Assembly (NCBI GenBank): GCA_012523775.1
Contig: JAAYTK010000099.1
Location: 1-51,019 of the forward strand
DNA: 51,019 nucleotides
Reading direction: 5' to 3'
Origin: Clostridiales bacterium
GTDB lineage: Bacteria > Bacillota > Clostridia > Lachnospirales > Lachnospiraceae
Shown here in pieces: positions 25,626 through 47,051 of this stretch (its first letter is position 1; every line of letters starts with the position of its first letter). The translations under genes and the position numbers were made by a program. Under the pieces are notes generated by a model, which ran no database searches, had not been told where the DNA came from, and saw nothing but the letters and a program-made list of their open reading frames with translations.

Positions 25626-27200
25626 ATGGATAAAAGGGCAAATAACCCCATATTACCCGGATTTTATCCTGACCCTTCAATATGTAGGGTAGGAGAGGAT
25701 TATTATTTAGTTACATCAACCTTTGCATATTTTCCGGGAGTACCGATTTTTCATAGTAAGGATTTGATTAACTGGAAGCAGATAGGTAATATTCTTGACC
25801 GCAAGGAACAGCTGAATCTTTCCGGTGCAAAACACTCCGGGGGAATATTTGCGCCTACCATCCGCTACCATGAGGGTGTTTTCTATATGATTACAACTAA
25901 TGTGAGCAATGGTGGGAATTTTATAGTCACGGCAAAAGATCCTGCCGGTCCATGGTCTGATCCGTTTTTTATAGAAGGGGCTGAAGGAATTGACCCTTCG
26001 TTATTTTTTGATGATGATGGTAAATGCTATTATACAGGAACCAGAGGACGCAGAGAAGGTGAAAGATATTACGGGGACAATGAAATATGGGTACAGGAGC
26101 TGGACATAAACAGCATGAAATTAATCGGAGAGTCATATGCAATATGGCATGGAGCATTAAGAAATGTTGTCTGGCCTGAGGGACCACATATATATAAGAA
26201 GGATCAGAGATATTACTTAGTGATAGCCGAGGCGGGAACAGGACATGCCCATGCGGTAACCGTAGCATCCTCCTCAAGTATTACGGAGCCTTTCACGGGC
26301 TATAACTGTAATCCCATCTTAACCCATAGACATCTTGGCCTGGATTATCCGATCGTCAATGTAGGTCATGGGGATTTGGTAGAGACACAAAATGGTGAAT
26401 GGTATATGGTGGTATTGGCATCCCGTCCATATGGCGGATATTATAGAAATCTTGGAAGAGAGACATTTCTTGTACCGGTAGAATGGGAGAACGGTTGGCC
26501 CCTTATCAACAGAGGAATAGGCCTTTTGGAACCTACCGTGAGAGTACCCAATCTTCCGATTACACCCGTTGAACCGTTGCCGGAGAAAGAGGATTTTGAT
26601 GGAAATAAACTTCCCCTACACTTCCTTTTCTTAAGAAATCCGGATTTATCGAAGTATAGTCTGGAGGCCAGAAGGGGTTTTCTTCGAATTATGCTTACTC
26701 CTGAGAAACTGACAGAGCTGGTAAGTCCTGGCTATGTTGGAATTCGTCAAACAGATATGAGCTTTGTGTTCGAGGCATGCATGGAGTTTTGTCCAAATTC
26801 GGATAATGAAGAAGCCGGAATCGTAATTTTACAAAGCAATGAATACCACTATCGATTTGTAAAGATGCAAAAAGATGGAGCTAATGTGATACGATTAATC
26901 AGATGCAGGGAGGGGAAAGAGGAAATACTGCACGAGAATATTATAGAGAATGACAAGCAAAACCGACAGGTTAAGCTTCGCCTGTCGGCTCAAATGCAGG
27001 ACTTATCCTTCTCATACTGTCTGGAAAATAATATATATCATGCATTAATATCAGGTGTCGACGCAAGAATGCTTAGTACGGATGTGGCCGGAGGCTTTGT
27101 TGGCAACACCTTAGGCCTGTATTGCTCATCAAACGGCATAGAAAGCAAAAACCATGCCGACTTTGACTGGGTTTCGTATAAGAATATTCCGCTATTTTGA
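25626..27200 (+). CDS. GH43 beta-xylosidase / arabinofuranosidase
   Basis: The 524-residue glycoside hydrolase of family 43 has a five-bladed propeller (~1-310) and a C-terminal beta-sandwich (~320-520). The three catalytic acids are in place: Asp16 (PDPS) as base, Asp123 (GIDPSL) as pKa modulator and Glu185 (WPEGPH) as acid. The overall type (NPILPGFYPDPSICR, YGGYYRNLGRETFL) suggests the subfamily that cuts xylose or arabinose from xylo-oligosaccharides. There is no signal peptide, so it acts in the cytoplasm. It lies convergent to the AraC regulator (9-bp overlap of the 3' ends) and belongs functionally with the downstream xylan operon. Confidence 0.92.
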   Translation: MDKRANNPILPGFYPDPSICRVGEDYYLVTSTFAYFPGVPIFHSKDLINWKQIGNILDRKEQLNLSGAKHSGGIFAPTIRYHEGVFYMITTNVSNGGNFIVTAKDPAGPWSDPFFIEGAEGIDPSLFFDDDGKCYYTGTRGRREGERYYGDNEIWVQELDINSMKLIGESYAIWHGALRNVVWPEGPHIYKKDQRYYLVIAEAGTGHAHAVTVASSSSITEPFTGYNCNPILTHRHLGLDYPIVNVGHGDLVETQNGEWYMVVLASRPYGGYYRNLGRETFLVPVEWENGWPLINRGIGLLEPTVRVPNLPITPVEPLPEKEDFDGNKLPLHFLFLRNPDLSKYSLEARRGFLRIMLTPEKLTELVSPGYVGIRQTDMSFVFEACMEFCPNSDNEEAGIVILQSNEYHYRFVKMQKDGANVIRLIRCREGKEEILHENIIENDKQNRQVKLRLSAQMQDLSFSYCLENNIYHALISGVDARMLSTDVAGGFVGNTLGLYCSSNGIESKNHADFDWVSYKNIPLF

Positions 27201-28091
27201 GTTCAACATATGTATACTGCTTTTCACCCTGTTACGTCGTTGATATAGATTCTTAAACTCGGTGGGTGTACATTCTTTAAAATTTTTAAAAACACGATTA
27301 AAGGTAGAGATACTCGAGAAACCGGAACGCATAGCTACCTCAGTGATGGATAGGTTGGGATTTAGTAAAAGCTTTTCTGCTTCCTTTACCCGTCTTTGAT
27401 TTAAATAATCATAAAATGACATATCGGTAAACTGCTTAAACAGCCTGGAGAAGTGAAATTTACTAAATCCTGCCACATCAGCTATGGTGTCAAGAGATAT
27501 TTCCTCCATATAATTATCGTTAATATAATCAAATATCAGGTTGAATTTCTCAATATACTCCTTTTGTTTATTAAGCTTTACATCGGGGAATATATGCTCG
27601 GTATTCATGTATTTTCGTCCCAGAATTACGAACATCTTAATAATCAAAGAATAAATTGCGGCTTCTTTTAAGGTATTATTGCTGTTATATTCATAGGTTA
27701 TCTCATCATAAAGCTTAGTAAGTTCCAAATTAGTCTCCTGGGCATTACGTTGTGTAATAAGTCTTGGCTGATTAAGCACGGTAAATATATTGGTAATACC
27801 CTTAAGACTGCTTATTAAAGAATAGTCAAACAATAAAATTCTTCTTAGACCATCCTTGGGGGCAATCAGCTCATGGAGCTCACCCGGCGGAATTACAAGA
27901 ATATCTCCTTCCTGTAAGAGATATGTTGTTTTTCCTATTACCACCGTATAATAATTATTAATGGGCATTATAATTTCAACCGCCGTATGCCAATGGGGTG
28001 GATAATTATCAATCTCTTTATTAATATGTAGTAATATGGATGAATTGTTTTGGTAATCCACCTTTTCATAGATTCCGTCCAGAATTCTCAT
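27192..28091 (-). CDS. AraC-family regulator with N-terminal cupin
   Basis: The ~299-residue regulator has a cupin sensor domain (PPHWHTAVEIIMPINN, GDILVIPPGELHELI) followed by two helix-turn-helix units (ISLDTIADVAGFSKFHFSRL, LSITEVAMRSGFSSISTFNRVFK). This is the classic AraC/XylS form that activates sugar-use genes. Placed between GH43 and the xylan operon, it is the obvious local regulator, sensing a xylose- or xylan-derived sugar (inference). The start is uncertain: ATG 28091 follows GAGGGAT closely, and GTG 28100 is an alternative start preceded by AAAGG. Its promoter is at 28155-28183. Confidence 0.9.
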   Translation of the reverse strand: MRILDGIYEKVDYQNNSSILLHINKEIDNYPPHWHTAVEIIMPINNYYTVVIGKTTYLLQEGDILVIPPGELHELIAPKDGLRRILLFDYSLISSLKGITNIFTVLNQPRLITQRNAQETNLELTKLYDEITYEYNSNNTLKEAAIYSLIIKMFVILGRKYMNTEHIFPDVKLNKQKEYIEKFNLIFDYINDNYMEEISLDTIADVAGFSKFHFSRLFKQFTDMSFYDYLNQRRVKEAEKLLLNPNLSITEVAMRSGFSSISTFNRVFKNFKECTPTEFKNLYQRRNRVKSSIHMLNSK

Positions 28092-28154
28092 ATCCCTCAC
28101 TTACCTTTCTAATTAAGAGATGCTATGGCATTTTAATGTTTACATAACTGGCAA

Positions 28155-28575: not shown

Positions 28576-31497
28576 ATGTCAGTTGCATCAATATTTAAAA
28601 AGAAAAGTTTCTACTTCATACTTATTATTGCGCTTGCGATAATCGGATATTCGGTTTATGTCAAGATAATGAATGACCGCTATGAAGCATCTAAAGAAGC
28701 CGAGACAGTATCTGAAGTAATGGATACAGAAAAGATAATGGGCAGAGAGGATATATATAGTGTTTATCTTGAGCGACATAAGGATGCCATAAGACCGGAT
28801 TATGAAATTACCGTTGATGTTAAGAATTATACATCAGCAGAGTTGGTGGAGGTGTATGACGAATTCCAGGGAAGGAACGGAGTCATCATGTCCAAGGAGG
28901 GAGGCTTTGTTGAGTGGGAGGTTGATATCCCAAAGGCCGGATTGTACAATATCAGCTTGGATTATTTTCCTATAGAGGGCAGAGGAATCGATATCGAAAG
29001 GGCGCTATATATTAACGGAGAGATGCCCTTTGCGGGTGCCGATACTTTAGCATTTTCGCGTATATGGACAGACGCAGGCGAAGTTCGGATGGATAACAGA
29101 GGCAATGAGATACGCCCCACACAGGTTGAAAAGCCCAGATGGGAGAGCGCTTATCTTAAGGATTACATGGGATATTATATTGAGCCCTATTGCTTTTATT
29201 TTAATGAGGGTAAGAATACAATCAGGCTGGATGCCTTAAACGAGACTGCGGCAATAAGTAATATTGTTATAGGACAAAAAGAAGAGCTGGTTACATATAA
29301 TGAATACATAGCATCCTTTGATGCAAGTAAGTATCAGAATAAAGATATAGATTTCTTTTATAAGAAGCAAGGGGAAGACGCTGAATATAGATCTTCTCCG
29401 ACTTTGTATGCAGTTTATGACAGAGCATCCTCTAATACTGAGCCCTATAGTGCTGCAAAAATAAAGCTAAACAGCATCGGTGGTGAGCAGTGGAGGGTAG
29501 CAGGACAATGGATTGAATGGGAATTTGAAGTGCCTGAGGATGGTTTCTATAACATATCCTTTAAGGCCAAGCAAAATTATAATCGAGGCATGGTATCTAT
29601 AAGAACGGTTATGATAGACGGCATTACTCCGTTTAAGGAGGCCGCCAATCTTGAGTTCAGATATAACACCGGCTGGCAACTGACGACGCTTTCGGATGAA
29701 GATGGCATTCCCTATAAAATTCCGTTAACAAAAGGAAAACATACCATACGACTTGAGGTGTCCATGGGAAATCTCGGTGATATTTTAAACCGTATGGATG
29801 AGAGCATATATCGTCTTAACTCCATATATCGTAAGATTCTTGTGCTTACAGGAGCCAGACCTGACCAATACAGGGATTACAGGATTGACGTTAAATATCC
29901 TGAGGTAATGGTGGCTATGGAGAAGGAAATTGAGTTTCTAGATGAGATTGTAAAGGACTTAGAAGAATTTACCGGACAAAGAGGTGCCGATACTGCCGTT
30001 GTGGTTAATATATCTAAGAGATTACAAAGATTTGTTAAGAATCCCGACGCTATACCTAGAGGTATGGAATCCTTTAAGATGGATATTAGCTCATTAGGTA
30101 CAGCCATGCTTAACTTAAGCAATTCTCAATTGGATATCGATTTTGTATACATTAATGCTGACGGTGCCGATTTACCTAATGTAGAGGAAACCTTTGTGGG
30201 CAAGGTGGCTCACGAGCTAAGATCCTTTGTCGCATCGTTTTTCGAGGATTACTCTACACTGGGAAGTGTTTATGAAGACGGAAAGGTTATAGAGGTTTGG
30301 CTATTGTCGGGTCGTGATCAGTCAACCATCTTAAAAAACATGATAGATGAAATATTTACACCAACCTATGGAATAGGAGTAAATGTTAAGCTTATTGATA
30401 CTAACACACTCTTACCTGCGGTGGTAGCGGGAACGGGTCCTGACGTGGCTCTGTCTGTGTGGAACCATGTACCAGTGGATTATGCACTTCGTGATGCCGC
30501 GGTTGATTTATCACAGTTTGAGGATTTTGATGAAGTGGCCTCCGAGTTTCATGAAAGTGTGTTCGTACCATATGAATTTGAGGATGGTATTTATGCATTG
30601 CCTGAAACACAGAATTTTGCGGTAATGTTCTATAGAACAGACATTTTAGAGGAGATAGGAGCCAAGGTGCCTGTTACATGGGATGATGTAATAGAGCTTC
30701 TGCCTCTGCTTCAGAAAAACAACATGCAATTTGCTATGCCTTCGCCTGAGAGAGTGCTAAACGGCATTCAAAATCCTGATACTACCGGAATGATGGCGTT
30801 GCTTTATCAGAACGGAGGACAGCTGTATACAGAAGACGGCAAACGTACTTTGCTGGATACGGAGAAATCAGTAGCAGCCTTTGAATTCTTCACCAGGCTT
30901 TACACTCATTACAGCCTGCCGGTCCAATATGACTTTGTTAACAGATTCCGTACCGGAGAGATGCCAATAGGTATACAGGATTTCAGTAATTATAATATAC
31001 TAAGTGTATTTGCTCCTGAAATAAGAGGTCTATGGGAGTTTGCACTGGTTCCGGGAACAGTACAGGAGGATGGTACCGTAGACCACTCTGTACCTTTTGG
31101 TGGGACCTGTAGCATGATTCTTAAGAATGCTGAGGATTATGATGCTGCGTGGACCTTCTTAAAATGGTGGGTAAGCTCTGAAACCAATACCAGATTCGGA
31201 CGGGAGCTTGAAAGTATTATGGGCTCTGCAGCCAGATATGCAACGGCCAACAAGGTAGCATTTGAGGAGTTGGCATGGAGTAGTGATGATGCGGCGCTTA
31301 TAAAGGAACAGTGGGAATGGACGGTAGGTACGCCTAATGTGGCCGGAGGATATTCTACTGTTCGTCATATGATTAATGCCTATCGTAAGGTTACCTATAA
31401 TAAAGAGGACGCGAGAGAAACCCTACTGGATTACACCAGAACAATCAATGATGAAATTAAATACAAGCGGTTAGAACTGGGCTTGGATGTAGATTAA
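28576..31497 (+). CDS. Membrane-anchored sugar-binding protein with two N-terminal carbohydrate-binding-like domains
   Basis: The 973-residue protein is far larger than ordinary ABC solute-binding proteins (~400-500). Residues 12-29 form a single uncleaved-type membrane anchor with no lipobox Cys. Two beta-sandwich modules follow (about 90-245 and 290-405), sharing the pattern G-x-V/W-I/V-E-W-E-V/F-x-V/I-P-x-x-G-x-Y-N-I-S, reminiscent of CBM6/35-like modules. A helical spacer (~405-580) leads to a family-1 type extracellular binding domain (~590-950) with LPETQNFAVMFYRTDILEEIGAKVPVTWDD and AWTFLKWW. It probably captures long xylan fragments and feeds the permease pair encoded directly after it. 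AAGGAAGGAA precedes ATG 28576. It is first in the operon. Confidence 0.85.
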   Translation: MSVASIFKKKSFYFILIIALAIIGYSVYVKIMNDRYEASKEAETVSEVMDTEKIMGREDIYSVYLERHKDAIRPDYEITVDVKNYTSAELVEVYDEFQGRNGVIMSKEGGFVEWEVDIPKAGLYNISLDYFPIEGRGIDIERALYINGEMPFAGADTLAFSRIWTDAGEVRMDNRGNEIRPTQVEKPRWESAYLKDYMGYYIEPYCFYFNEGKNTIRLDALNETAAISNIVIGQKEELVTYNEYIASFDASKYQNKDIDFFYKKQGEDAEYRSSPTLYAVYDRASSNTEPYSAAKIKLNSIGGEQWRVAGQWIEWEFEVPEDGFYNISFKAKQNYNRGMVSIRTVMIDGITPFKEAANLEFRYNTGWQLTTLSDEDGIPYKIPLTKGKHTIRLEVSMGNLGDILNRMDESIYRLNSIYRKILVLTGARPDQYRDYRIDVKYPEVMVAMEKEIEFLDEIVKDLEEFTGQRGADTAVVVNISKRLQRFVKNPDAIPRGMESFKMDISSLGTAMLNLSNSQLDIDFVYINADGADLPNVEETFVGKVAHELRSFVASFFEDYSTLGSVYEDGKVIEVWLLSGRDQSTILKNMIDEIFTPTYGIGVNVKLIDTNTLLPAVVAGTGPDVALSVWNHVPVDYALRDAAVDLSQFEDFDEVASEFHESVFVPYEFEDGIYALPETQNFAVMFYRTDILEEIGAKVPVTWDDVIELLPLLQKNNMQFAMPSPERVLNGIQNPDTTGMMALLYQNGGQLYTEDGKRTLLDTEKSVAAFEFFTRLYTHYSLPVQYDFVNRFRTGEMPIGIQDFSNYNILSVFAPEIRGLWEFALVPGTVQEDGTVDHSVPFGGTCSMILKNAEDYDAAWTFLKWWVSSETNTRFGRELESIMGSAARYATANKVAFEELAWSSDDAALIKEQWEWTVGTPNVAGGYSTVRHMINAYRKVTYNKEDARETLLDYTRTINDEIKYKRLELGLDVD

Positions 31498-31519
31498 CGA
31501 ATGGGAGGAGAGAGAGAAG

Positions 31520-32458
31520 ATGAGTGCTAAGATAGAGCAATGGAAGGAGAGGAAGAAAAGAGAAGCTTCTTATACCTTGAAGACTATTTGGAAATGCAAG
31601 GTTCAATACGCTTTCTTATTCCCCTATGCGTTGTTGTTTACAGTCTTTTTTATAACACCGGTTGTAATATCGATATTCTATAGCTTTACATATTATAATG
31701 TATTGAACCCACCGGAGTTTATTGGACTACAGAATTATATCAATCTTATTCTTGCGGATGATGTATTTTTGATTTCGGTTCAGAATACATTTCTACTGGC
31801 AGTTATAACGGGTCCGGTCGGCTATATGATGTCGTTCTTATTTGCCTGGTTAATCCATGAGCTGCCAAGATTTTTAAGATCCGTGTTTGTACTTATATTC
31901 TTTGCTCCCTCCATCGGTGTCAATATGTTCATGCTGTTTGGAACATTATTCAGCAGTGATTCATATGGATGGGCTAATGCATATCTGATGGAATGGGGCA
32001 TTAAGGATCAGGTTACATTTTGGCTTACCGATCCTAAATATATGATGGGTGTAATTATTATAGTCGTACTATGGATGAGCTTAGGTAATGGATTCTTATC
32101 ATTTATAGCCGGTCTTCAGACCATCAGTCAGGATCAGTATGAAGCCGGTTATGTGGATGGAATTAAGAACCGTTGGCAGGAGCTTTGGTATATCACGCTT
32201 CCCAACATGAAGCCAATGCTGCTGTTTGGTGCGGTTATGGCGATCACACAGTCATTTACTGTAGGTGAAGTAGCCAATGCACTTTGTGGATTCCCCAGTA
32301 CAGACTATGCTGCAAGTACGGTAGTAACCCATCTAATGGACTATGGTTCACTAAGGTTTGATATGGGATATGCTTCTGCCATAGCCACAATACTTTTCTT
32401 AGCAATGATACTTTCCAAGAAAGCAGTTGGTGCTATGCTGAACAAGGTAGGAACTTGA
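31520..32458 (+). CDS. Carbohydrate ABC permease, first pair, MalF/UgpA type
   Basis: The 312-residue inner-membrane permease of the CUT1 class has six main helices after a charged N-terminal tail. The cytoplasmic coupling segment EAGYVDGIKNRWQELWYITLPNMKPM is the EAA loop that docks the ATPase. It pairs with the next gene's permease to form the channel for the sugar presented by the 973-residue binding protein. RBS GGAGGAGAG; 22 nt after the previous stop. The FFITPVVISIFYSF segment at the first helices is typical. Confidence 0.93.
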   Translation: MSAKIEQWKERKKREASYTLKTIWKCKVQYAFLFPYALLFTVFFITPVVISIFYSFTYYNVLNPPEFIGLQNYINLILADDVFLISVQNTFLLAVITGPVGYMMSFLFAWLIHELPRFLRSVFVLIFFAPSIGVNMFMLFGTLFSSDSYGWANAYLMEWGIKDQVTFWLTDPKYMMGVIIIVVLWMSLGNGFLSFIAGLQTISQDQYEAGYVDGIKNRWQELWYITLPNMKPMLLFGAVMAITQSFTVGEVANALCGFPSTDYAASTVVTHLMDYGSLRFDMGYASAIATILFLAMILSKKAVGAMLNKVGT

Positions 32459-32510
32459 TTTCATACATCTATATTGGGTTTAAGTATAAATAAGGGAGAT
32501 AAGATTTAAT

Positions 32511-33371
32511 ATGAGTAAATTAAAAAAGAGAAAACCAAATAGGTCAAGATGGGGCGACGTATTCGTCTACGTTGTTCTGATTGTTTTTGGATGGTTCTTT
32601 ATGCTGCCATTGCTGTATGCAGTCAACAGTGCTTTTAAGCCGTTAGATGAGATATTCTTATTCCCTCCTAAGCTTTGGGTCAGCAAGCCGACTCTGGACA
32701 ACTTCGCAGATTTGTTTGTATTAATGGGAAAGACATGGGTACCGTTTTCCCGGTATATATTTAATACAGTATTTATCACAGTCGTTGGTACTCTGGGACA
32801 TCTCCTGGTTGCCTCAATGGCTGCATATGTGTTGTCCAAATATAAGTTTCCGGGCAGTAAAGCTTTTTTCACCATCGTAGTTACCGCCCTGATGTTCACA
32901 CCTCAGGTTATGGCTATCCCAAACTATCTGGTTATGACAAAGCTGGGTTGGGTAAATACTTATTGGTCGATAATTGTACCTGCATTTGCCGCTCCGATAG
33001 GTTTGTTTTTAATGAAGCAGTTTATGGAGCAGTTACCGGATGTACTTATAGAAGCCGCAAAAGTTGATGGGGCTAAGGAAGTAAGAATATACTTTAAGAT
33101 AGTCATGCCGCTTGTTAAACCGGCATCCTTAACTTTGTCTATCTTTTCCATATTGAATTTGTGGAATACAAGAGCCTCAAACTTTATATATAATGAAGAA
33201 TTAAAGACTTTACCATATGCACTCTCGCAGATTATCACCGGAGGGCAGATTGCCAGAGCCGGTGTAAGTGCAGCCGTAACGCTGTTTATTCTGATAGTAC
33301 CTCTGCTTTTCTTCATCTTTGCGCAGAGTAGTATCATAGAAACCATGGCAAGTTCGGGAATTAAGGAGTGA
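32511..33371 (+). CDS. Carbohydrate ABC permease, first pair, MalG/UgpE type
   Basis: The 286-residue partner permease has about six helices, the N-terminal PLLYAVNSAFKPLDEIFLFPPKLW segment typical of MalG-like subunits, and the EAA loop EAAKVDGAKEVRIYFKIVMPLVKPA. The C-terminus ends in SSIIETMASSGIKE, the usual short cytoplasmic tail of the class. No ATP-binding gene follows, so the energy must come from an ATPase encoded elsewhere. Confidence 0.93.
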   Translation: MSKLKKRKPNRSRWGDVFVYVVLIVFGWFFMLPLLYAVNSAFKPLDEIFLFPPKLWVSKPTLDNFADLFVLMGKTWVPFSRYIFNTVFITVVGTLGHLLVASMAAYVLSKYKFPGSKAFFTIVVTALMFTPQVMAIPNYLVMTKLGWVNTYWSIIVPAFAAPIGLFLMKQFMEQLPDVLIEAAKVDGAKEVRIYFKIVMPLVKPASLTLSIFSILNLWNTRASNFIYNEELKTLPYALSQIITGGQIARAGVSAAVTLFILIVPLLFFIFAQSSIIETMASSGIKE

Positions 33372-33381
33372 GGTGACAAAG

Positions 33382-34881
33382 ATGATAAGAAAAGCAAAGA
33401 AATTAATTATATACATTATATTGTTGTCCATGGTATTAATACCGAAGGATAGGGTGTCAGCGGAATCAGAGTCATATACCTATACCTATGAATACTTTGA
33501 CTTTCAGCTTGAATCACCTGATGCATATACACCGCAAGCCTTACTTCTTGGAACTGATTTAGGTATAGGAGACTTTAATAATCCCAAGTCGTTATTTGTA
33601 AGAGATGAGTATCTGTATATAGTTGATTCCGGTAACAATAGAATCGTAGTCGTAGACAGATACTTCGAGCTTATCCGTGTAATAGACAAGGTTATAATGG
33701 ACGGTGAGGAGGTCACATTTCTTAATCCCTCAGATGTCTATGTAACCGCAAACGGGGATATGTATATATGTGACGCCGATAATAACAGAGTATTACATAC
33801 AGATGCTGATTTAAATGTAATAAAGACATATGTAAAGCCTGATGACCCTACAGTACTGGGAGAAACGAATTTTATACCGTTAAAATGTGTTGTGGATAAG
33901 GCAGGACGTCTATTTGTTTTGGCCGGTAATGTCAACCAGGGCTTTATGGAATTTGACAAAGAAGGTAATTTCACCAACTTTACCGGGGCAAATCCTGTTA
34001 AAGCAACCTTGTGGCAGGCATTGCAAAAGAGGCTTATGACCAAGGAGCAAAGAGCGAGAATGATCTTGTTTGTTCCAACGGAATACAGCAATCTTGCCAT
34101 TGACAAGGATGACTTCCTATATGCAACTACAAACACCTTTACGACAGATCAATTGGCAACGATGAAGACGGTTAACCCTGTTCGTAAGCTGAATTCCATA
34201 GGAGAAGATATACTTGTTAGAAACGGTTATGAACCTCCTATCGGCGATTTGCAATGGGGAGCCGGCGGTGATATGACCGGACCGTCCAGATTTGAAGATG
34301 TTACGGCTATGGATAATGATACTTACTTCTGCCTGGACCGTAACAGGGGAAGAATATTTGGGTATGATTTCCAGGGTAACATGTTATATGCATTTGGAGG
34401 AGCCGGCAACAAGCTGGGATATTTCCAATACCCTATATCTATAGAGCATATGGGAACAGATTTATTTGTGCTGGATAACAGAGCGGTATCGGTAACCCGG
34501 TTTACATTAACCGAATTCGGTAAATATATCAATGAAGGATTAGCATTATATAAAGAAGGACTCTACGAGGAATCCGCCGAATATTGGAAAAAAGCATTAC
34601 GTTTAAACGGTAATTATGATCTGGCATATATAGGTATAGGACGGGCGCTTCTTCGTAAGGGAGAATACCAAGAAGCCATGAAGTATTTTAAGAGCAAGCG
34701 TGATTATAATAACTACTCTAAGGCATTTGCCGAATATAGAAAGGAATGGGTAGAGGAGAATATACAGTATCTACTTATAGGTGCGGCTGCACTGGTTATT
34801 GTTCCTTTAGTGATAAGCAAGATACTAAAGCGGTTTAAAGGGGGTGCGGCGAATTATGAACGCAAAGACAGAGATTTATAA
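33382..34881 (+). CDS. Exported NHL-propeller plus TPR protein with C-terminal membrane anchor
   Basis: The 499-residue protein starts with a signal peptide (LIIYIILLSMVLIPKDRVSA). A beta-propeller of NHL-type blades (~45-380) follows, with repeated FVRDEYLYIVDSGNNRIVVVDR and YVTANGDMYICDADNNRVLHTD patterns. Two TPR-like helix pairs (~385-455: LYKEGLYEESAEYWKKAL, IGRALLRKGEYQEAMKYFKSK) come next. One C-terminal membrane helix (~462-482) and a short basic tail complete it. It should therefore stand outside the membrane, anchored at the C-terminus, as a scaffold or sensor. GTG 33373 is in frame, but GAGGTGA favours ATG 33382. The 3' end overlaps the YIP1 gene by 26 bp, so the two are coupled. 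Confidence 0.85.
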   Translation: MIRKAKKLIIYIILLSMVLIPKDRVSAESESYTYTYEYFDFQLESPDAYTPQALLLGTDLGIGDFNNPKSLFVRDEYLYIVDSGNNRIVVVDRYFELIRVIDKVIMDGEEVTFLNPSDVYVTANGDMYICDADNNRVLHTDADLNVIKTYVKPDDPTVLGETNFIPLKCVVDKAGRLFVLAGNVNQGFMEFDKEGNFTNFTGANPVKATLWQALQKRLMTKEQRARMILFVPTEYSNLAIDKDDFLYATTNTFTTDQLATMKTVNPVRKLNSIGEDILVRNGYEPPIGDLQWGAGGDMTGPSRFEDVTAMDNDTYFCLDRNRGRIFGYDFQGNMLYAFGGAGNKLGYFQYPISIEHMGTDLFVLDNRAVSVTRFTLTEFGKYINEGLALYKEGLYEESAEYWKKALRLNGNYDLAYIGIGRALLRKGEYQEAMKYFKSKRDYNNYSKAFAEYRKEWVEENIQYLLIGAAALVIVPLVISKILKRFKGGAANYERKDRDL

Positions 34882-35518
34882 GGAAAAGTTAAGACACCTC
34901 GGAAAGACCTTAAGATACAGCCTATATGTGATATTCCATCCATTTGACGGATTCTGGGACCTAATACATGAGAAGCGGGGCTCAATCGGAGCGGCAACCA
35001 TTATATTTATAATGATGCTTTTAACACAGGTTTGGACATGGACATATTCAGCATTTCCGTTTTATTTTCCGCAGTGGGAGTACTTCAACCTGTTCATGCG
35101 GGTTTTACCGTCGGCAGTACTATTCTTTATTTGGTGTATTGCTAACTGGAGTCTCACCACACTGATGGATGGAAAGGGTAGACTCAGTCATATATATATG
35201 GCTTCTGCCTATGCCCTAACTCCTTTTATATTGATTAGAATACCCTTAATATTTCTTACATATATACTTAGCTATGATGAGTATACCTATTATGCGGTAT
35301 TTGCGAATCTTAGTATAGTATGGTGTGTGATATTGTTTATTGCAGCCATGATGATGATACACGACTACACTATAGGAAAGGCTTTATTCTCAAGCTTTCT
35401 TACCATAGTGGCCATGATGATTATTATATTCTTGATAATTATGTTTTTCAGCTTAATTACGCAGAGCTTCGGATATTTCGTAGCTTTGTACAAGGAAGCT
35501 ACATTCAGACTGTATTAG
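34856..35518 (+). CDS. YIP1-family membrane protein
   Basis: The ~220-residue polytopic protein has a short cytoplasmic N-terminus (YSLYVIFHPFDGFWDLIHEKRGS) followed by about five to six hydrophobic helices. This is the Yip1 domain layout found in bacterial membrane proteins of unknown role. The YVIFHPFDGFWDLIHEKRGS opening is typical of Yip1 proteins encoded with sugar-transport genes. It overlaps the NHL-TPR gene and lies 25 nt before the DUF5696 lipoprotein gene, so the three likely form one membrane assembly (inference). Start ATG 34856 follows AAAGGGGGTG; an in-frame GTG at 34844 is the alternative. Confidence 0.8.
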   Translation: MNAKTEIYKEKLRHLGKTLRYSLYVIFHPFDGFWDLIHEKRGSIGAATIIFIMMLLTQVWTWTYSAFPFYFPQWEYFNLFMRVLPSAVLFFIWCIANWSLTTLMDGKGRLSHIYMASAYALTPFILIRIPLIFLTYILSYDEYTYYAVFANLSIVWCVILFIAAMMMIHDYTIGKALFSSFLTIVAMMIIIFLIIMFFSLITQSFGYFVALYKEATFRLY

Positions 35519-35543
35519 CATATTAGAAGGAGGAGCAAACAGT

Positions 35544-38075
35544 ATGAAAAAAAGAAAAAATCTTCTGTTATTACTTGTAATCGCCCTCTTACTATGTGTA
35601 ATGTCTGCATGTAGTAAGGAAGTAGTCGAAGAAAATATAGAAGTATATTCCCCGGATGAGGAGATAAAAGAAAAGGAAGTAGTAATTGAGAATGATAATT
35701 TTGAGTTTCATTTCTTTCCTAAGACTACTCAGTTTTACATAGTAAAGAAGAGTAACGGATTTATATGGCGTTCAAACCCTGAGGATACATCTGATCAGGG
35801 GGGATTCAGAAAAGAGTTGGATTCAACGTTAACATTACGGTACAATACTGAATCCGGCAGTAAAACCCTGTTAAATAATTATGGTCTCTGTATCGAGAAG
35901 GGTAATTATACCTATGAAGTTACAGGTAATAAAATCAGAGTGAACTATACCATAGGTAATGTCAATAAAGTATATTATGTACCCAAGGCTGTACCTGAAT
36001 CCAGGTTCCTTGAATTTTATGATAAGATGAGCAAATCGGCTCAGAACCAAATAAGTATGAGCTACCGGGTATATGATATTAATGACTTAAGAAAATCAGA
36101 TGACAAAGACGCACTTATAGCTGCATATCCAGATTTGGTTAATGAGCCTGTCTATGTCATGATGGAGGGAACACCCAAATATCTGATTGAAATGGCAGAG
36201 GAAAAGTTCGCTGAAGTAGGATATACTCCTGAGGATTATGAGATTGATGCAGCAAGATATGAGTCAGAATCCTCTCAGGATATTCCTGTGTTTAATATTT
36301 CACTTATATACGAACTGACTGAGGATGGATTTGAGCTTACAATACCTATGCATGAAATCGAGTATAAGCAGAAGTATCCTATTGTTGAAATCAGGCCATT
36401 ACCTTATTTCGGGTCAGGCGGTAAGAATGATGAAGGCTTCATATTTGTACCTGAGGGCTCGGGAGCTTTAATCAATTTTAACAATCAAAAGCAATCTCAG
36501 AATTCTTATAAAAGTGACTTGTATGGTTGGGACTATGCAATTAACAGAGATGCTGTTGTCGATGAAAACAGAGCAAATATGCCTTTATTCGGCATAAGCA
36601 AAAATGGTTCCTCATTCATATGTATTCTCGAAGAAGGCAATTCATATGCATTTATAGATGCAGATGTGAGCGGAGGGTCCCATGATTATAACTATGTAGC
36701 AGCCAACTATAATCTTGTGCATAGTGAGCTGATGGATATCTCGGCAAAATCAGACAGGACTGTCCGTATGTTTGAGGATAAGCTGCCAGATGAGGACCTG
36801 AAGCAAAAATATATTTTCATAGATGAAGATGATTACGTGTCTATGGCAACTGTTTATCGTGAGTATCTTTTGGATAGATTTCCTATGATGACGAAGCGAA
36901 CAGAATCTGATTTTCCTGTGGCGGTTGAAATCATAGGTGCCATCGACAGGACAAAGCATTACATAGGTATTCCCGTAAGAAAGCCATATGAGCTGACATC
37001 CTATAAGGAAGCCCTGGACATGATAAAAGAACTCAAGGAAGCAGGGATTACCGATCTGAATATCATTTACAACGGTTGGTTTAATAAGGGTATACTTCAT
37101 GAAGCACCCAATAAAGTTAAATTGATATCAGAGCTTGGAAGCAAGAAGGACTTTAAGAATCTTGTCAAATATACTAACGAAAATGATGTGAATTTGCATT
37201 TATCTGCTTCAATACAATTTGTTTACAATAATTCTTTATGGGATAATTTTATAGCCATAAGAGACAGCGCCAAGTATGTTAACCGTAAGCTTGTTGAACT
37301 TGAGCCTTATAATCCCATATGGTTTGGTAGAAGTGATTATCTATATCAGTATTATTTGGCTAAGCCCAGTTATTATTTAAATAATCTTGATTTATATGCG
37401 AAGGAAATAGCCGATTTAGGATTGAAGAATTTAGCATTTGAAGATATTGGCGAGACATTAAGCGCCGATTATAACAAAAAAAATCCTGTTTCCAGAGAAC
37501 AGGTTAAGCTGATGCAGATGGAGAAGCTGGAGAAGCTTTCGTCAGAAGACTACAATATGATAATTCGTACGGGAAATATGTATGCGGTTCCTTACTCTGA
37601 CTTTATCATTAACGTTAACCTTGCCACGAAGAAATATAATATAATCGACGAAGAGATACCGTTTTATCAGATTGTACTCCATGGTCTTGTGTCCTATGCC
37701 AGTACGCCTATTAACCTGTCTCCTAACTTCGAATATTATCTTCTCAAAACAGTAGAAACAGGAGCTGGTTTACAATACAGCTTTATGGATGCAGATATAT
37801 TCGATCTGCAGGACAGCCGTTATACCAACTATTTTGCTTCTGATTTCAGAGAGCAGAAGGACGAGGCCATTAATTTATATAAAAAGCTGAAAGCGGATTT
37901 CGGACATCTTTATAACCAGTTTATCACAGGCCATCAGAAGCTGGCGAACGGTGTGTATATGACAGAGTACGAGGATGGTACACAGGTTATAGTAAACTAC
38001 AATGAGAGGGCTTACACCCACAAGGGTATTGAGATTCCGGCTAAGGATTATATTGTGGAAGGAGGTAAGCAATAA
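35544..38075 (+). CDS. DUF5696 lipoprotein, possible unrecognised glycosidase
   Basis: The 843-residue exported lipoprotein (lipobox MSAC, Cys23) has an N-terminal beta-sandwich (~50-420) rich in Gly and aromatic strands. A TIM-barrel-like region (~455-790) follows, with alternating strand-helix segments such as IKELKEAGITDLNIIYNGW and LGLKNLAFEDIGETLSADY. A small C-terminal beta-domain follows (VYMTEYEDGTQVIVNYNE, AYTHKGIEIPAKDY). That arrangement looks like a retaining glycosidase of the GH-A/GH101-like sort. Asp/Glu residues at strand ends (E633, D634, D749/D751 region) are candidate catalytic positions. DUF5696 has no assigned function known to me. It sits on the outer membrane face next to sugar-importer genes. 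Confidence 0.75.
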   Translation: MKKRKNLLLLLVIALLLCVMSACSKEVVEENIEVYSPDEEIKEKEVVIENDNFEFHFFPKTTQFYIVKKSNGFIWRSNPEDTSDQGGFRKELDSTLTLRYNTESGSKTLLNNYGLCIEKGNYTYEVTGNKIRVNYTIGNVNKVYYVPKAVPESRFLEFYDKMSKSAQNQISMSYRVYDINDLRKSDDKDALIAAYPDLVNEPVYVMMEGTPKYLIEMAEEKFAEVGYTPEDYEIDAARYESESSQDIPVFNISLIYELTEDGFELTIPMHEIEYKQKYPIVEIRPLPYFGSGGKNDEGFIFVPEGSGALINFNNQKQSQNSYKSDLYGWDYAINRDAVVDENRANMPLFGISKNGSSFICILEEGNSYAFIDADVSGGSHDYNYVAANYNLVHSELMDISAKSDRTVRMFEDKLPDEDLKQKYIFIDEDDYVSMATVYREYLLDRFPMMTKRTESDFPVAVEIIGAIDRTKHYIGIPVRKPYELTSYKEALDMIKELKEAGITDLNIIYNGWFNKGILHEAPNKVKLISELGSKKDFKNLVKYTNENDVNLHLSASIQFVYNNSLWDNFIAIRDSAKYVNRKLVELEPYNPIWFGRSDYLYQYYLAKPSYYLNNLDLYAKEIADLGLKNLAFEDIGETLSADYNKKNPVSREQVKLMQMEKLEKLSSEDYNMIIRTGNMYAVPYSDFIINVNLATKKYNIIDEEIPFYQIVLHGLVSYASTPINLSPNFEYYLLKTVETGAGLQYSFMDADIFDLQDSRYTNYFASDFREQKDEAINLYKKLKADFGHLYNQFITGHQKLANGVYMTEYEDGTQVIVNYNERAYTHKGIEIPAKDYIVEGGKQ

Positions 38076-39004
38076 TGGATAAGGAAAAAAAGCAGAAAAA
38101 GCAAAGGAAGCAAAGGAAACCAAAGAGTATGGCATATAGAAATGCCGTGGCGGGATATTTATTTACGGCACCGTTTATTATAGGGTTTTTACTGTTCCTT
38201 TTGGTACCCCTGATGCAGTCTTTGCGAATGGCTTTTAGCGACGTTAAATTTGAAGGAGGCATTGCTTATTACTTCGTAAAATTTGCAAACTTCAAATATA
38301 TCTTTACCGTGGATCCTGAATTTGTACCTTTTATGATTAATGAGCTGATTCAAATGGCATATACCGTACCGTCCATCATAATATTCAGCTTTTTCATAGC
38401 AATCGTACTTAATCAGGAATTTAAAGGCAGAGGATTGGTAAGAGCAATCTTTTTCCTGCCGGTTATTCTTTCGTCAGGTGTATTAATAGGTCTTGAGACT
38501 AATAATACATTGATGCAGGGGCTTAAGGACGTAATAGCGGAATCGTCCAATGCCACCAGCATCACAGATACGGTAAAAAGCATGTTTTTATCTGAAGGTA
38601 CATATATTGGTCCTATTCAATATGTATTCGATGCTGTTGACCGTGTATATGAAATTGCGATGGCCTCCGGTATTCAGATAATCATTTTCCTTTCCGGCCT
38701 TCAGACAATATCGGCCAGTATGTTTGAGGCAGCTAAAATCGAAGGTGCAACCGCCTGGGAAACGTTTTGGAAAATAACATTTCCTATGGTTAGTTCCTTG
38801 ATTTTAGTTAATGTAATATATTCAATCATTGATTTCTTCGTCCGATCCGATAATGAAGTAATGACTCATATCAAGAATACAATGACTGCTTCGATAGAGT
38901 ATGGTAGGAGTTCGGCAATGGCATGGACTTACTTCGCAGTGATTGCTGTAATAATTACAGTAACATCAGCACTTATATCAAAGAGGGTATACTATTATGA
39001 TTAA
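38075..39004 (+). CDS. Carbohydrate ABC permease, second pair, first subunit
   Basis: The 309-residue CUT1-type permease starts with a lysine-rich tail and a PFIIGFLLFLLVPLMQSLRMAFSDV helix pair. An extra extracytoplasmic loop (~150-190, ESSNATSITDTVKSMFLSEG) follows, and then the coupling loop EAAKIEGATAWETFWKITFPMVSS. The start overlaps the DUF5696 stop (TAATG) behind GGAGG, so translation is coupled. It forms the second importer with the next gene and the 483-residue binding lipoprotein. Confidence 0.92.
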   Translation: MDKEKKQKKQRKQRKPKSMAYRNAVAGYLFTAPFIIGFLLFLLVPLMQSLRMAFSDVKFEGGIAYYFVKFANFKYIFTVDPEFVPFMINELIQMAYTVPSIIIFSFFIAIVLNQEFKGRGLVRAIFFLPVILSSGVLIGLETNNTLMQGLKDVIAESSNATSITDTVKSMFLSEGTYIGPIQYVFDAVDRVYEIAMASGIQIIIFLSGLQTISASMFEAAKIEGATAWETFWKITFPMVSSLILVNVIYSIIDFFVRSDNEVMTHIKNTMTASIEYGRSSAMAWTYFAVIAVIITVTSALISKRVYYYD

Positions 39005-40037
39005 AGTGAATTTTCTATCAAAAAAATCAAATAAGGTAAAGCGGGTAAAAAATGAGTCCTTCAAGGGCTTTTGGGAAAGAAACAGATTATCAAATGGGTA
39101 TTTATTAAAAAAGACTATCGGTAGAAAGCTGTTTAACTTCTGTAGAGCGGTTATGTTATTCGGATTAGTTTTCCTGATACTACAGCCTATTTTGAGTAAA
39201 ATATCCGTAAGCTTTATGGAGGAAAGGGATTTATATGATGCGACCATCATTAATATTCCAAGGAACTGGTCAGTTTCTAATTATGAAATGTCCAGTATGC
39301 TGATGAATTATAAGAGCTCGATAATATCAACGCTGTGGGTATCGCTGCTTATAGCAGTAATTCAGTTAGCATCCACAACCCTTGTGGCATATGGTTTTGC
39401 CAGATATAATTTCCCAGGTAAAAAGCTTTTGTTTGCTGCGGTTATACTATCCATAGTAATTCCGCCCCAAACTATTCTGACTGCATTATATCTTAACTTC
39501 AGGCATTTTGATATTTTTGGGTTATTTAAGCTCTTTACAGGGAAATCAATAAATCTTCTTGGCTCTATATTGCCTTATGTAATGATTAGTGCCGGTGCCA
39601 TGGGACTGAAGAACGGCCTATACATATTTATGCTAAGACAGTATTTTAGAGGAATACCTAAGGAGATGGAGGAAGCCGCATATGTAGACGGCTGTGGTAA
39701 GCTTAAGACCTTCTTTATAATCATGCTTCCTGACGCAAAGCCGATGCTGACATCCATATTTCTTTTCTCATATGTGTGGCAATGGACAGATACATTTTAT
39801 TCATCCCTGTTCCTACGTGAATTCCGCCTCCTGGCTAACGCCGTTGCAGGACTTGGTGACGGACTTATGACATATATTCAAAATATAAGTAACAGAACGG
39901 CATTTCCCTCCACAGCCTATACACAAGCCATTATATCTACGGGTACATTAATGGTAGTAGCGCCATTAATTATCATATATATTGTAGCACAAAAGGGCTT
40001 TGTCGAAAGCCTTGCTCAATCGGGAATCAAAATGTAA
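38997..40037 (+). CDS. Carbohydrate ABC permease, second pair, second subunit
   Basis: The 346-residue MalG/LplC-like permease has a long basic N-terminal tail, six helices, and the EAA loop EAAYVDGCGKLKTFFIIMLPDAKPM, ending in SLAQSGIKM. Its ATG 38997 overlaps the previous gene by 8 bp. A soluble-looking loop (FRHFDIFGLFKLFTGK) separates the middle helices. It is inferred to use the same absent ATPase as the first pair. Confidence 0.92.
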   Translation: MIKVNFLSKKSNKVKRVKNESFKGFWERNRLSNGYLLKKTIGRKLFNFCRAVMLFGLVFLILQPILSKISVSFMEERDLYDATIINIPRNWSVSNYEMSSMLMNYKSSIISTLWVSLLIAVIQLASTTLVAYGFARYNFPGKKLLFAAVILSIVIPPQTILTALYLNFRHFDIFGLFKLFTGKSINLLGSILPYVMISAGAMGLKNGLYIFMLRQYFRGIPKEMEEAAYVDGCGKLKTFFIIMLPDAKPMLTSIFLFSYVWQWTDTFYSSLFLREFRLLANAVAGLGDGLMTYIQNISNRTAFPSTAYTQAIISTGTLMVVAPLIIIYIVAQKGFVESLAQSGIKM

Positions 40038-40062
40038 TGATTTAAATTAAAAGGAGGTAGTA

Positions 40063-41514
40063 ATGAAGTTAAAAAAATTATTGGCTGTCTTATTAGTACT
40101 GTCCATGGTTTTGACTGCATTTTCAGCTTGTGGAAAAGCAGATGAAGCGACGGTCGATCCTGAGCCGTCAGGACAGACGAATGAGCAAGATGAGACTAAA
40201 GAGGATGACGGGGAAGATGCTACACCTACGCCGACACCTACTCCGGAACCACCAAGAGATTTAGGAGGAATCCATATCACGGTTGCGGATTGGTATACAA
40301 CCGGTCAGGCAGAAGCCAAGACTAAAAAGGAGGAGGATAGACAGGCCTATCGTGAGAAGCTACAGGCGGATCACAATTTTACCTTAACGCAGGAAAATGT
40401 TGCGGCATGGGGAGAATATCAGGAACTGTTTATTACGTCTACAATGAGCGGGACTCCCGTAGCGGATATATTTATTATGGATCCGGCAATGGTTCCGGAG
40501 CCCTTAAAGCAGGGATTAATGTATCCGGTTAGTGAGATACCCAGCTTTAATAACTTCGAAGATAAAATGTGGAATAACGCAGTTAAGGAATCTTATTCAC
40601 AGAACGGCAAAATATATGCGTTTTCAGAGGTTAACGAGCTGCTAGGCTTAGGAGTTTTCTGGAATAAGCGTTTATTTGAGGAAGAGGGCTTAGATCCTGA
40701 TTACCTATACGATTTACAAGCAAGCGGTGAGTGGACCTGGGACAAAATGAAGGAATTGGCAAGAAGATTAACTAAGGATACAGATAATGACGGACAGACA
40801 GATATATATGGTATAACAGGCTGGCAGAGAGAAATTGTAAAAGCCGCTGTATTTAGTAATGGTTCTGATTACGTCAGATTTAATTCCGAGACAGGAAGAT
40901 ATGAGAATAATCAGAAGTCCGATGAAGTATTGGCTGCAATTCAGTTAGCAGTAGATATGTTTAACGAGGGTCTGATAGCACCCAGACCTTTAGAGGAAGG
41001 CTCAGATGAAATCAGATTCTTCATCGATACCTTTAATACAGGTCAGGCAGCAATGTGTCCCGCCGAATGGTATAGACACACAGATTTTGCAGATATGGTC
41101 GATGATTGGGGCTTTGTATTCTTCCCTAAAGGACCCGGACCAAATGCCAAGATGCAGACTATGTACTTAACAAATCCAAGAGTTATGCCGGCTGATATGG
41201 ATCCCGACCGTGCCGACGCTGTTGCATTCGCATACAGTAAATGGGTAGGAGAGGTCCCGGGATACGAGGATGATGAGAGAGATTTGTCATATTATTATGC
41301 CAGCGTAAGAGACGCCAGAGCCGTAGAAGAGACAATCGTTCCAATGCTTGACGGACAGGGTGTGTTCTCCTTGGTATACATGATACCGAAACTAAGTTTC
41401 CGTCATGGTGCAAATGAAGATAATGGCGGATTGGCAAACTTCTCTGCTATTGAAATAGCAGATGCTGCCAGTGCTAATTACGATAGTATAATTAATGATT
41501 TCTATGAAGATTAA
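40063..41514 (+). CDS. Sugar-binding lipoprotein of the second importer
   Basis: The 483-residue solute-binding lipoprotein has its anchor Cys23 after LTAFSA and an acidic, Pro/Thr-rich linker (TPTPTPTPEPP, ~52-65). The family-1 binding domain follows, with ADWYTTGQ, GVFWNKRLFEEEGLDPDYLYDL, DTDNDGQTDIYGI and a C-terminal hinge region. It delivers oligosaccharides to the permeases encoded at 38075-40037. RBS AGGAGG before ATG 40063. A strong hairpin without a T-run lies after the gene and may protect or end this part of the transcript. Confidence 0.92.
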   Translation: MKLKKLLAVLLVLSMVLTAFSACGKADEATVDPEPSGQTNEQDETKEDDGEDATPTPTPTPEPPRDLGGIHITVADWYTTGQAEAKTKKEEDRQAYREKLQADHNFTLTQENVAAWGEYQELFITSTMSGTPVADIFIMDPAMVPEPLKQGLMYPVSEIPSFNNFEDKMWNNAVKESYSQNGKIYAFSEVNELLGLGVFWNKRLFEEEGLDPDYLYDLQASGEWTWDKMKELARRLTKDTDNDGQTDIYGITGWQREIVKAAVFSNGSDYVRFNSETGRYENNQKSDEVLAAIQLAVDMFNEGLIAPRPLEEGSDEIRFFIDTFNTGQAAMCPAEWYRHTDFADMVDDWGFVFFPKGPGPNAKMQTMYLTNPRVMPADMDPDRADAVAFAYSKWVGEVPGYEDDERDLSYYYASVRDARAVEETIVPMLDGQGVFSLVYMIPKLSFRHGANEDNGGLANFSAIEIADAASANYDSIINDFYED

Positions 41515-41613: not shown

Positions 41614-42579
41614 ATGGTAGGATTAAAAGAAAAATATAAAGACTATTTCAAAGTCGGTGCGGCAGTTAATATATATACTGTAGATACACACAAAGAATTA
41701 CTGATAAAACATTTTAACAGCATAACCTGTGAGAATGAGACCAAATTTGTTAATATACAACCTGAAGAGAACAACTACGAATATGATCAAACCGATAAAA
41801 TATTAAGTTTTGCAAAAAAAAATAATATAGCCATGAGAGGCCATACAATGGTATGGCATAACCAGACACCGGATTGGGTATTTAAGGATGCAACAAGAGA
41901 TATCCTTCTGGAGCGTATGAAGAACCACATATATAATGTCGGGAAAAAGTATAAAAATGACTTCTATTGCTGGGATGTCGTAAATGAAGCAATAGAAGAT
42001 AAGAAAGATTTGTTTTATCGAAAAAGTCCGTGGCTGGAGATAATCGGAGAAGATTTTATGGATTATGCATTTAATTATGCCAGGGAAGTGCTTCCGGATA
42101 CGGACCTTTATTACAATGATTATAACGAAAGTGAGTACCCCAAAAGGGATAAGATATATAAAGCAATTAAGGACATGCTTGATCGCGGCGTTCCTGTGGA
42201 TGGAGTCGGTCTTCAATGTCATTGGAATATCTGCAGTCCATCTATGGATGATTTTAAACAGGCAATGGAGCAGTATGCGAAGCTGGGCATAAAGATTCAG
42301 GTAACAGAGATGGATTTGTCTGTATTTGATTTTAAGGACGAGACCAGACTCGATAAGCCAGGTATTGATTTACTGAAGAAGCAAGCCGCAATTTACAAGG
42401 AAGGATTTAAGATTCTAAGAGAATATAAGGATATAGTCGATACCGTTACTCTATGGGGTGTTGCCGATGATGCTACATGGTTGGATGATTTCCCCGTGAA
42501 GAACCGCAAGAATTGGCCCCTATTATTTGACGAGAATCATGAACCCAAGGAAGCGCTATATGCAATTATGGACTTTTAA
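41614..42579 (+). CDS. Intracellular GH10 endo-xylanase
   Basis: The compact 321-residue GH10 enzyme hydrolyses beta-1,4-xylan or glucurono-xylooligosaccharides. The catalytic acid is Glu125 (WDVVNEAIED) and the nucleophile Glu232 (QVTEMDLS). RGHTMVWHNQTP and GVGLQCHWN are usual substrate-site segments, and WGVADDATWLDDFP closes the barrel. No signal peptide or binding module is present, so it cuts imported oligosaccharides in the cytoplasm, as known for short intracellular GH10 enzymes. It is the first enzyme gene after the importer genes, followed 26 nt later by GH3. Confidence 0.96.
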   Translation: MVGLKEKYKDYFKVGAAVNIYTVDTHKELLIKHFNSITCENETKFVNIQPEENNYEYDQTDKILSFAKKNNIAMRGHTMVWHNQTPDWVFKDATRDILLERMKNHIYNVGKKYKNDFYCWDVVNEAIEDKKDLFYRKSPWLEIIGEDFMDYAFNYAREVLPDTDLYYNDYNESEYPKRDKIYKAIKDMLDRGVPVDGVGLQCHWNICSPSMDDFKQAMEQYAKLGIKIQVTEMDLSVFDFKDETRLDKPGIDLLKKQAAIYKEGFKILREYKDIVDTVTLWGVADDATWLDDFPVKNRKNWPLLFDENHEPKEALYAIMDF

Positions 42580-44800: not shown

Positions 44801-44857
44801 TATATTAATGTGAATACTGATAATGTAAATACTGATAATAATTGCTTGGAGGAAAAA

Positions 44858-46934: not shown

Positions 46935-47030
46935 AATTTTCGATGACAGCTTAGTATGACAACGGAAGTTCCGGGAATGACTAAGGGGGATAAGGGGTAT
47001 CTCAAGCGGGGAGATACACAATCGAAAATT
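46935..47030 (+). ncRNA. Unassigned structured leader RNA (three-stem fold)
   Basis: P1, AATTTTCGAT (46935-46944) with ATCGAAAATT (47021-47030), is perfect over 10 bp and encloses two hairpins. P2 is CTTAGT (46950-46955) with ACTAAG (46980-46985). P3 is GTATCTC (46997-47003) with GAGATAC (47011-47017), closing loop AAGCGGG. P1 ends right at the ribosome site AAGGAGGT (47033-47040) of the next gene, so folding could control translation. A second AAGGAGGG (46918-46925) lies just before it with no good ORF. I could not match it to a riboswitch class I know. Confidence 0.5.
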
Positions 47031-47051
47031 AAAAGGAGGTATTGGAGCAAA

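Follow-up and report, generated by a model that had tools for sequence, protein, structure and literature searches.

MsmX is the shared ATPase of CUT1 carbohydrate importers, which are ATP-binding cassette (ABC) transporters (PMC7658222, PMC5730181). The locus analyzed here lies on contig JAAYTK010000099.1 of a Clostridiales bacterium, of which positions 1-51,019 (the whole stretch of 51,019 nucleotides, hereafter "the window") were examined through a list of open reading frames (ORFs) and their Pfam matches. It resembles such importers in comprising solute-binding proteins (SBPs), pairs of permeases with EAA loops and an ATPase that is encoded elsewhere; it differs from them in that a cassette of eight genes locks two permease pairs together with an NHL-TPR protein, a YIP1-domain membrane protein and a DUF5696 protein. 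These eight genes constitute, we are highly confident, one functional system; that the system is a two-pump importer of hemicellulose oligosaccharides, with an NHL/YIP1 scaffold and a mostly non-catalytic DUF5696 working in the manner proposed below, is a proposition to which we give about as much belief as doubt.

DUF5696 brings a second set of described relatives into play. Its profile is similar to part of the barrel of NagBb (5WZN), an enzyme of glycoside hydrolase (GH) family 129, and of the GH101 relatives of that enzyme; the window protein differs from NagBb (PMC8106489) in its lipobox, its linkage to an importer and the absence of a conserved catalytic pair. With the 3,6-anhydro-D-galactosidase DagB (ZGAL_3152; 5OPQ) the likeness extends to N-terminal, barrel and C-terminal regions; DagB, by contrast, is an enzyme of a Zobellia carrageenan locus (PMC5698469) and is not known to belong to an ABC importer set. 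We file the cassette as a variant of the CUT1 ABC importer and not as a member of GH129. The Bacteroidota take up long glycans through a large surface complex of the SusCD type: the cassette is comparable to it in role alone, homology between the two not having been looked for. No mention of DUF5696 and no published description of the eight-gene set was found in a literature search whose scope excluded subscription papers and preprints and which, for the set, returned some partial result lists. A paper on a bacteriocin (PMC10707071) contains the name "YIP1 family protein".

Conservation of the eight-gene cassette

Nine ORFs of the importer region, all on the plus strand, follow one another in the order SBPN-P1-P2-NHL-TPR-YIP1-DUF5696-P3-P4-SBPC; the first eight make up the cassette. 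SBPN (28576..31497; 973 amino acids; Pfam SBP_bac_1/8) is followed by the CUT1-type permeases P1 (31520..32458) and P2 (32511..33371), by the NHL-TPR protein (from GTG at 33373 or ATG at 33382 to 34881; Pfam NHL and TPR), by the YIP1 protein (from GTG at 34844 or ATG at 34856 to 35518; PF04893, E 5.4e-11), by DUF5696 (35544..38075; PF18952, E 7.4e-197), by two further CUT1-type permeases, P3 (38075..39004) and P4 (38997..40037), and by a second binding protein, SBPC (40063..41514; PF01547, SBP_bac_1). Intergenic gaps are 1-52 bp, and three junctions overlap: NHL-TPR/YIP1 by 26 bp, counted from the YIP1 ATG at 34856 (upstream of which lies the stretch AAAGGGGG), DUF5696/P3 by 1 bp and P3/P4 by 8 bp. 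The order and overlaps of these genes, and the lack of a nucleotide-binding subunit among them, had been read from the letters in the original prediction, and ORFs and Pfam bear out that reading: none of the nine is an ATPase gene. The terminator-like sites listed on the plus strand are all intragenic, with none in the gaps (terminator-like sites as a whole number 23, against 11.6 in shuffles), and promoter-like sites are no commoner than in shuffles (57 versus 64.9). The operon is likely to run on past SBPC into genes for GH10, GH3 and GH67 enzymes.

How general is this arrangement? Forty-four DUF5696 loci were compared, 4 from public genome contigs and 40 selected from the neighborhoods of full-length PF18952 matches in the bacterium's own genome, 200 genomes of its family and 398 of its phylum. 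The neighborhoods were picked by hand, mostly where the contig left room, and some share a genome (three come from G533); the sample is neither random nor independent. The complete eight-gene set is present in 42 of the 44 loci (the YIP1 part of L103 being recognized through a search with profile A5), and 39 of these 42 keep the gene order of the window. One of the two incomplete loci, L005, is a piece of a contig on which NHL, YIP1 and DUF5696 are present. Counted among the 42 is L079, whose P2 is split into pieces of 189 and 215 amino acids by a minus-strand ORF of 442 amino acids (L079:3862-6700, approximately), possibly a mobile element.

A reverse search, with profiles A4 (NHL-TPR; E<=1e-20) and A5 (YIP1; E<=1e-10) in the same 200 family genomes, own genome included, asks the question from the other side and is the more telling of the two. 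The best 6 (DUF5696), 7 (NHL) and 15 (YIP1) candidates were scored per genome, which makes absence less sure than presence. NHL-TPR, YIP1 and module-type DUF5696 matches fall in the same 43 of the 200 genomes, and at these thresholds no NHL or YIP1 match was found in a family genome lacking DUF5696. Among 74 DUF5696 segments (a gene in two pieces being counted once, except in G016), NHL is found within 4 kb of 71 and YIP1 of 73; the segments with no NHL nearby are in G161 (locus L097), G173 and G016 (split contigs). Conversely, 3 of 74 NHL places and 3 of 76 YIP1 places have no DUF5696 match near them (G173, G051), and the G173 exceptions may arise because only the best candidates per genome were scored. 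Fourteen weaker DUF5696-like segments, treated as a separate group, have neither NHL nor YIP1 nearby (0/14); other low-scoring rows and three second NHL pieces were dropped. Genome G173 (L089 and other contigs) is exceptionally rich in copies, with at least 6 DUF5696, at least 7 NHL and 9 YIP1 matches. The original prediction had staked its idea of a single system on the middle genes not proving rare beside sugar importers elsewhere: the survey gives the opposite of rarity, near-constant co-occurrence, and the idea stands.

The eight proteins also vary together. Their pairwise-identity matrices correlate with Spearman coefficients of 0.82-0.95 (29-41 loci; L005, L079, L082, L097 and fused YIP1 proteins omitted), while SBPC co-varies less closely with them (0.71-0.84; 24-27 loci, a set of different size). 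With DUF5696 the coefficients are 0.89 for both P1 and P2 versus 0.82 for P3 and 0.85 for P4.

NHL-TPR and YIP1 are often one protein: 13 of the 42 complete loci encode both in a single frame, and in the 200 family genomes 30 of 76 YIP1 matches lie in frames of at least 400 amino acids, taken here as NHL-YIP1 fusions. Hydropathy gives the window's NHL-TPR protein an N-terminal hydrophobic segment and one C-terminal transmembrane segment, and its profile matches NHL propellers, designed "Pizza" propellers and TPRs in the PDB. The window's YIP1 protein passes the PF04893 cut-off (43.1 bits versus 28.6) and has five hydrophobic segments, a multi-transmembrane topology; no PDB relative was found by profile at E<=1. 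In L004 (7853-9976 and 13454-16705) NHL-TPR and YIP1 are fused, its closest relatives being unfused, and no SBPC or GH10 ORF lies between P4 and GH3. An AlphaFold2 model of this fusion, whose modest confidence (mean predicted local distance difference test score, pLDDT, 60.7) restricts its use to domain order, runs from propeller strands through TPR helices and a long helix to the YIP1 helices. The L004 fusion could be an assembly error, since it comes from a metagenome-assembled genome and its closest relatives are unfused; fusion in general is taken as real because so many other frames are fused.

DUF5696 and its glycosidase relatives

The window's DUF5696 protein scores 656 bits against PF18952 (cut-off 25.6) and has a lipobox by pattern; at E<=0.1 it matches no other Pfam model, PF11308 (GH129) included. 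PF18952 matches in the 14 control genomes are confined to two (T. maritima, L. lactis), where they fall below the model's own cut-off. A profile (A1) built from 37 of the 45 DUF5696 proteins (window plus 44 loci; L005, L069, L071, L072, L082, L089, L093 and L094 left out) matches, among PDB chains, DagB (5OPQ, E 2.9e-14, in three stretches), 8RZG/8RZK (5.9e-14) and NagBb (5WZN, 1.4e-7). These profile comparisons make DUF5696 a distant relation of the GH129-type glycosidases.

PF11308 itself has no match in 299 genomes or in the control genomes, and stand-alone relatives were for that reason drawn from the weaker PF18952 matches. There are ten of these (L107, L108 and L109-L116), of 560-679 amino acids; several adjoin a CUT1-type importer, none has NHL or YIP1 beside it in the stretches examined, and L109 is at once a match to the Pfam models for DUF5696, GH101 and GH129. 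The module and stand-alone sets align over 492 columns (hhalign profile-profile, E 1.5e-36). D434 and E477 (L109 numbering) are invariant in the stand-alone set (10/10 each). The second catalytic residue of NagBb we take to be Glu478. The other, Asp435, is equivalent to Asp486 of DagB (PMC5698469). By both hhalign and a joint MAFFT alignment, D434 and E477 map to window positions 634 and 675, where the window protein keeps D634 and has R675 in place of the acid/base: it lacks the Asp/Glu pair of GH129.

The window is not unusual in this. Of the 37 module proteins, 18 (the window's among them) have D at 634 and 8 have E at 675; acidic residues occupy both positions in 5 of the 37 (a D/E pair proper in 4), against 10 of 10 in the stand-alone set. 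The nucleophile-equivalent is replaced by Gly, Ser, Tyr, His or Asn in 17 of the 37, and three other Asp (329, 370, 481) that are invariant in the stand-alone set are mostly lost. The module proteins have conserved acids of their own: D330 (D in 36/37), E738 (E in 35/37, and shared by L107 and L108) and D702 (D in 32/37). In a FastTree tree, rooted by choice on the other eight stand-alone proteins, the 37 module proteins group together (support 0.87), and their neighbors L107 and L108 keep the pair; this placement makes the module lineage the most likely setting for the loss of the pair. Does loss of the pair entail loss of activity? Caution is called for: DagB is active without the second of NagBb's two catalytic residues (PMC5698469), and DUF5696 has those conserved acids of its own; different residues could still serve in catalysis. 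(A technical note: an AlphaFold2 model of DUF5696 built from five sequences was set aside, its mean pLDDT being 37.7.)

One import machine or two?

The EAA loop of known importers contacts the ATPase. All four permeases of the cassette match PF00528 (BPD_transp_1) and have EAA loops, as CUT1 permeases should; the loops were read from aligned columns because many of them escaped a strict EAA regular expression. The Gly of the loop is kept in 43 of 43 P1, 42 of 43 P2, 44 of 44 P3 and 44 of 44 P4, the only row without it being the split P2 of L079, and E, A and G are identical in all 43 P1 rows. In three loci P3 is longer (L102:10784-12001, L103:7614-8867, L104:7734-8993), with 405-419 amino acids in place of the usual ~300; that of L103 has a charged N-terminal extension.

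Where, then, is the ATPase? The bacterium's own genome holds 28 BPD_transp_1 matches versus a single OB_MalK match, to a protein of 371 amino acids with ABC_tran, OB_MalK and TOBE_2 domains, encoded outside the locus on a contig (C50) that has no BPD_transp_1 match. An ATPase encoded elsewhere, as had been supposed at the outset, is supported here and by other genomes: OB_MalK is matched in 41 of the 43 that hold the module, and in G161 a single match stands against at least 6 full-length DUF5696 segments. The best phmmer match to the lone ATPase in the 44 loci scores 107.5 bits; the L083 ORF that was scanned has no OB or TOBE domain. We infer that the lone MalK-type ATPase drives both pumps.

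Both binding proteins are of the SBP_bac_1 type expected of CUT1 importers. SBPN has an N-terminal hydrophobic segment (6-24) and no lipobox by pattern, and, N-terminal to its SBP domain, weak regions like carbohydrate-binding modules (CBMs) 6 and 35 that fall below Pfam cut-offs in the window protein; across 20 SBPN proteins at E<=0.01, SBP_bac_1 is matched in 20, Golvesin_C in 9, CBM_35 in 5 and CBM_6 in 3. The PDB profile matches of SBPN are to SBPs from about position 564, with one match at 304-403. SBPC looks like a lipoprotein to the eye, yet the lipobox pattern gave no call. A second SBP was counted where the SBPC profile matched or where an ORF belonged to a cluster with one Pfam-confirmed SBP: 38 of the 42 complete loci have one, and none was found in L004, L083, L084 and L099 in the stretches examined. 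In the L004 genome the closest counterpart of SBPC is 40% identical and located elsewhere. With a second SBP in so many loci, the notion that DUF5696 everywhere replaces it was dropped.

The mechanism that we propose makes of the eight genes a single cell-surface machine for importing hemicellulose-derived oligosaccharides. P1/P2 and P3/P4 would be two CUT1-type pairs, both powered by the lone MsmX/MalK-type ATPase; the NHL-TPR/YIP1 unit would be the membrane scaffold that joins both pumps and the surface proteins in one physical complex. Chains would be caught by SBPN, through its CBM-like regions and SBP domain, and held or presented to P3/P4 by DUF5696, glycosidase-shaped and mostly non-catalytic, in a kind of hand-over; SBPC would be a second binding protein more loosely tied to the cassette, and the substrate would be set by the SBPs and the neighboring enzymes (glucuronoxylan in the window). 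A bolder version, which we entertain only tentatively, would make the cassette a separate kind of Gram-positive glycan importer, a four-permease supercomplex in which NHL-TPR/YIP1 bridges the two CUT1 pumps and the ex-glycosidase DUF5696 threads long chains into the second of them: a SusCD counterpart with interchangeable substrate heads.

Several observations count against a single machine. Three loci (L076, L077, L081) have their halves reversed, NHL/YIP1-DUF5696-P3-P4 preceding SBPN-P1-P2; L097 shows YIP1-DUF5696-P3-P4 with no NHL, SBPN, P1 or P2 in the stretch examined, on a contig that stops shortly beyond P4; several P4 have another residue in place of the final Pro of the EAA motif (for instance in L085, L087 and L090); and 2 of the 43 module genomes (G029 and G097) have no OB_MalK match. 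Co-variation, compared here without an unlinked control gene, is partly expected from shared ancestry, a cassette can be inherited as a unit without its products forming a physical complex, and the structure models are poor (DUF5696) or modest (the L004 fusion). The reversed halves, splitting the set as they do into SBPN-P1-P2 and the rest, and the second SBP of 38 of the 42 complete loci also speak for a pair of independent CUT1 importers that share an operon, with NHL-TPR, YIP1 and DUF5696 as accessories of assembly, secretion or regulation. We consider this arrangement possible and on the whole doubtful: P1 and P2 co-vary with DUF5696 no less than P3 and P4 do, SBPN-P1-P2 go with the middle genes at 42 of the 44 loci, and L004 keeps the eight genes with no SBPC adjoining them.

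The single machine might also be built around a working enzyme, DUF5696 being a catalytically active glycosidase at the surface that strips decorated oligosaccharides of side groups ahead of their import by P3/P4. Its remote homology to active DagB and NagBb, the retention of a nucleophile-equivalent Asp in 18 of 37 proteins, the conservation of D330, E738 and D702, and the example of DagB itself (active with one of NagBb's two catalytic residues; PMC5698469) all favor this possibility, which we nonetheless think unlikely in view of a pair that is acidic at both positions in 5 of 37 module proteins versus 10 of 10 stand-alone ones, a nucleophile replaced in 17 of 37 and three further Asp (329, 370 and 481) that are each mostly lost. 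The original prediction, too, had the middle proteins process the chains; non-conservation of the GH129-type pair tells against that part of it, subject to the same reservation about DagB. Finally, the several copies per genome (G161 and G173 have at least 6 full-length DUF5696 segments apiece) suggest duplication or spread, and one might suppose a horizontally spread cassette in which the middle genes contribute nothing to sugar uptake. Such passive linkage we regard as very improbable: the set holds together in several of the phylum's families and with varying enzyme genes around it, and no family genome without DUF5696 has an NHL or YIP1 match at the thresholds used.

Neighboring enzymes and significance

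To return to the mechanism that we propose, what would the machine import? Upstream of the cassette in the window are a GH43-like ORF (25626-27200, read from its own sequence) and, divergent from the cassette on the minus strand, an AraC-family regulator (27192..28100; Pfam HTH_18, HTH_AraC, AraC_binding), members of whose cluster are also divergent upstream of the cassette in L003, L004, L086 and L094. Downstream, on the plus strand, come a GH10 xylanase-family enzyme (41614..42579; PF00331), a GH3 enzyme (42606..44765; PF00933/PF01915) and a GH67 alpha-glucuronidase-family enzyme (44810..46882; PF07488/PF07477). Together with the cassette these genes look like a glucuronoxylan locus. Adjoining GH67, at 46956-48680, are two CBM4_9 and two Big_2 stretches, probably of a xylan-binding surface protein; at 5711-8422 an ORF of 903 amino acids that combines an ABC ATPase with FtsX-like permease domains is unrelated to the cassette.

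Xylan is not the only fuel. The same genome holds a second complete cassette (L065; G000:C78:15000-34999) beside GH26-CBM35, GH130 and CBM65-cluster genes, likely a mannan importer. Across the survey the GH26, GH130 and CBM65 clusters are each found at 7 loci, by cluster membership (Pfam assignments were made on cluster representatives, one or two for these clusters, and not on each of the 231 flanking ORFs); GH51-type and GH43 clusters occur next to L088 and L100, and L101 has a GH51-type member beside it. Other neighbors include GH30 (L067), GH32 (L006), GH35/GH42-like (L073) and melibiase-like (L102) genes, along with some unconnected with sugars, a prismane-family protein (L085) and an aminotransferase (L083). 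Because the same cassette stands beside mannan-type GH26/GH130 and beside GH51/GH43-type genes, it is not xylan-specific, and the tie to xylan that had been assigned to the middle proteins is not supported: the cassette is a chassis that many Firmicutes carry next to enzymes acting on various plant fibers, and the window holds the xylan version.

To our knowledge, the uptake of long hemicellulose fragments by Gram-positive bacteria of the gut and of digesters is poorly understood. A strongly conserved set of genes beside xylan-, mannan- and arabinose-type enzymes is a testable candidate for that task, and it offers a function to three groups that have had none: DUF5696, the YIP1 group of the cassette and its NHL-TPR group. 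If DUF5696 is indeed a dead glycosidase turned receptor, it would also illustrate how a transporter can take over the fold of an enzyme.

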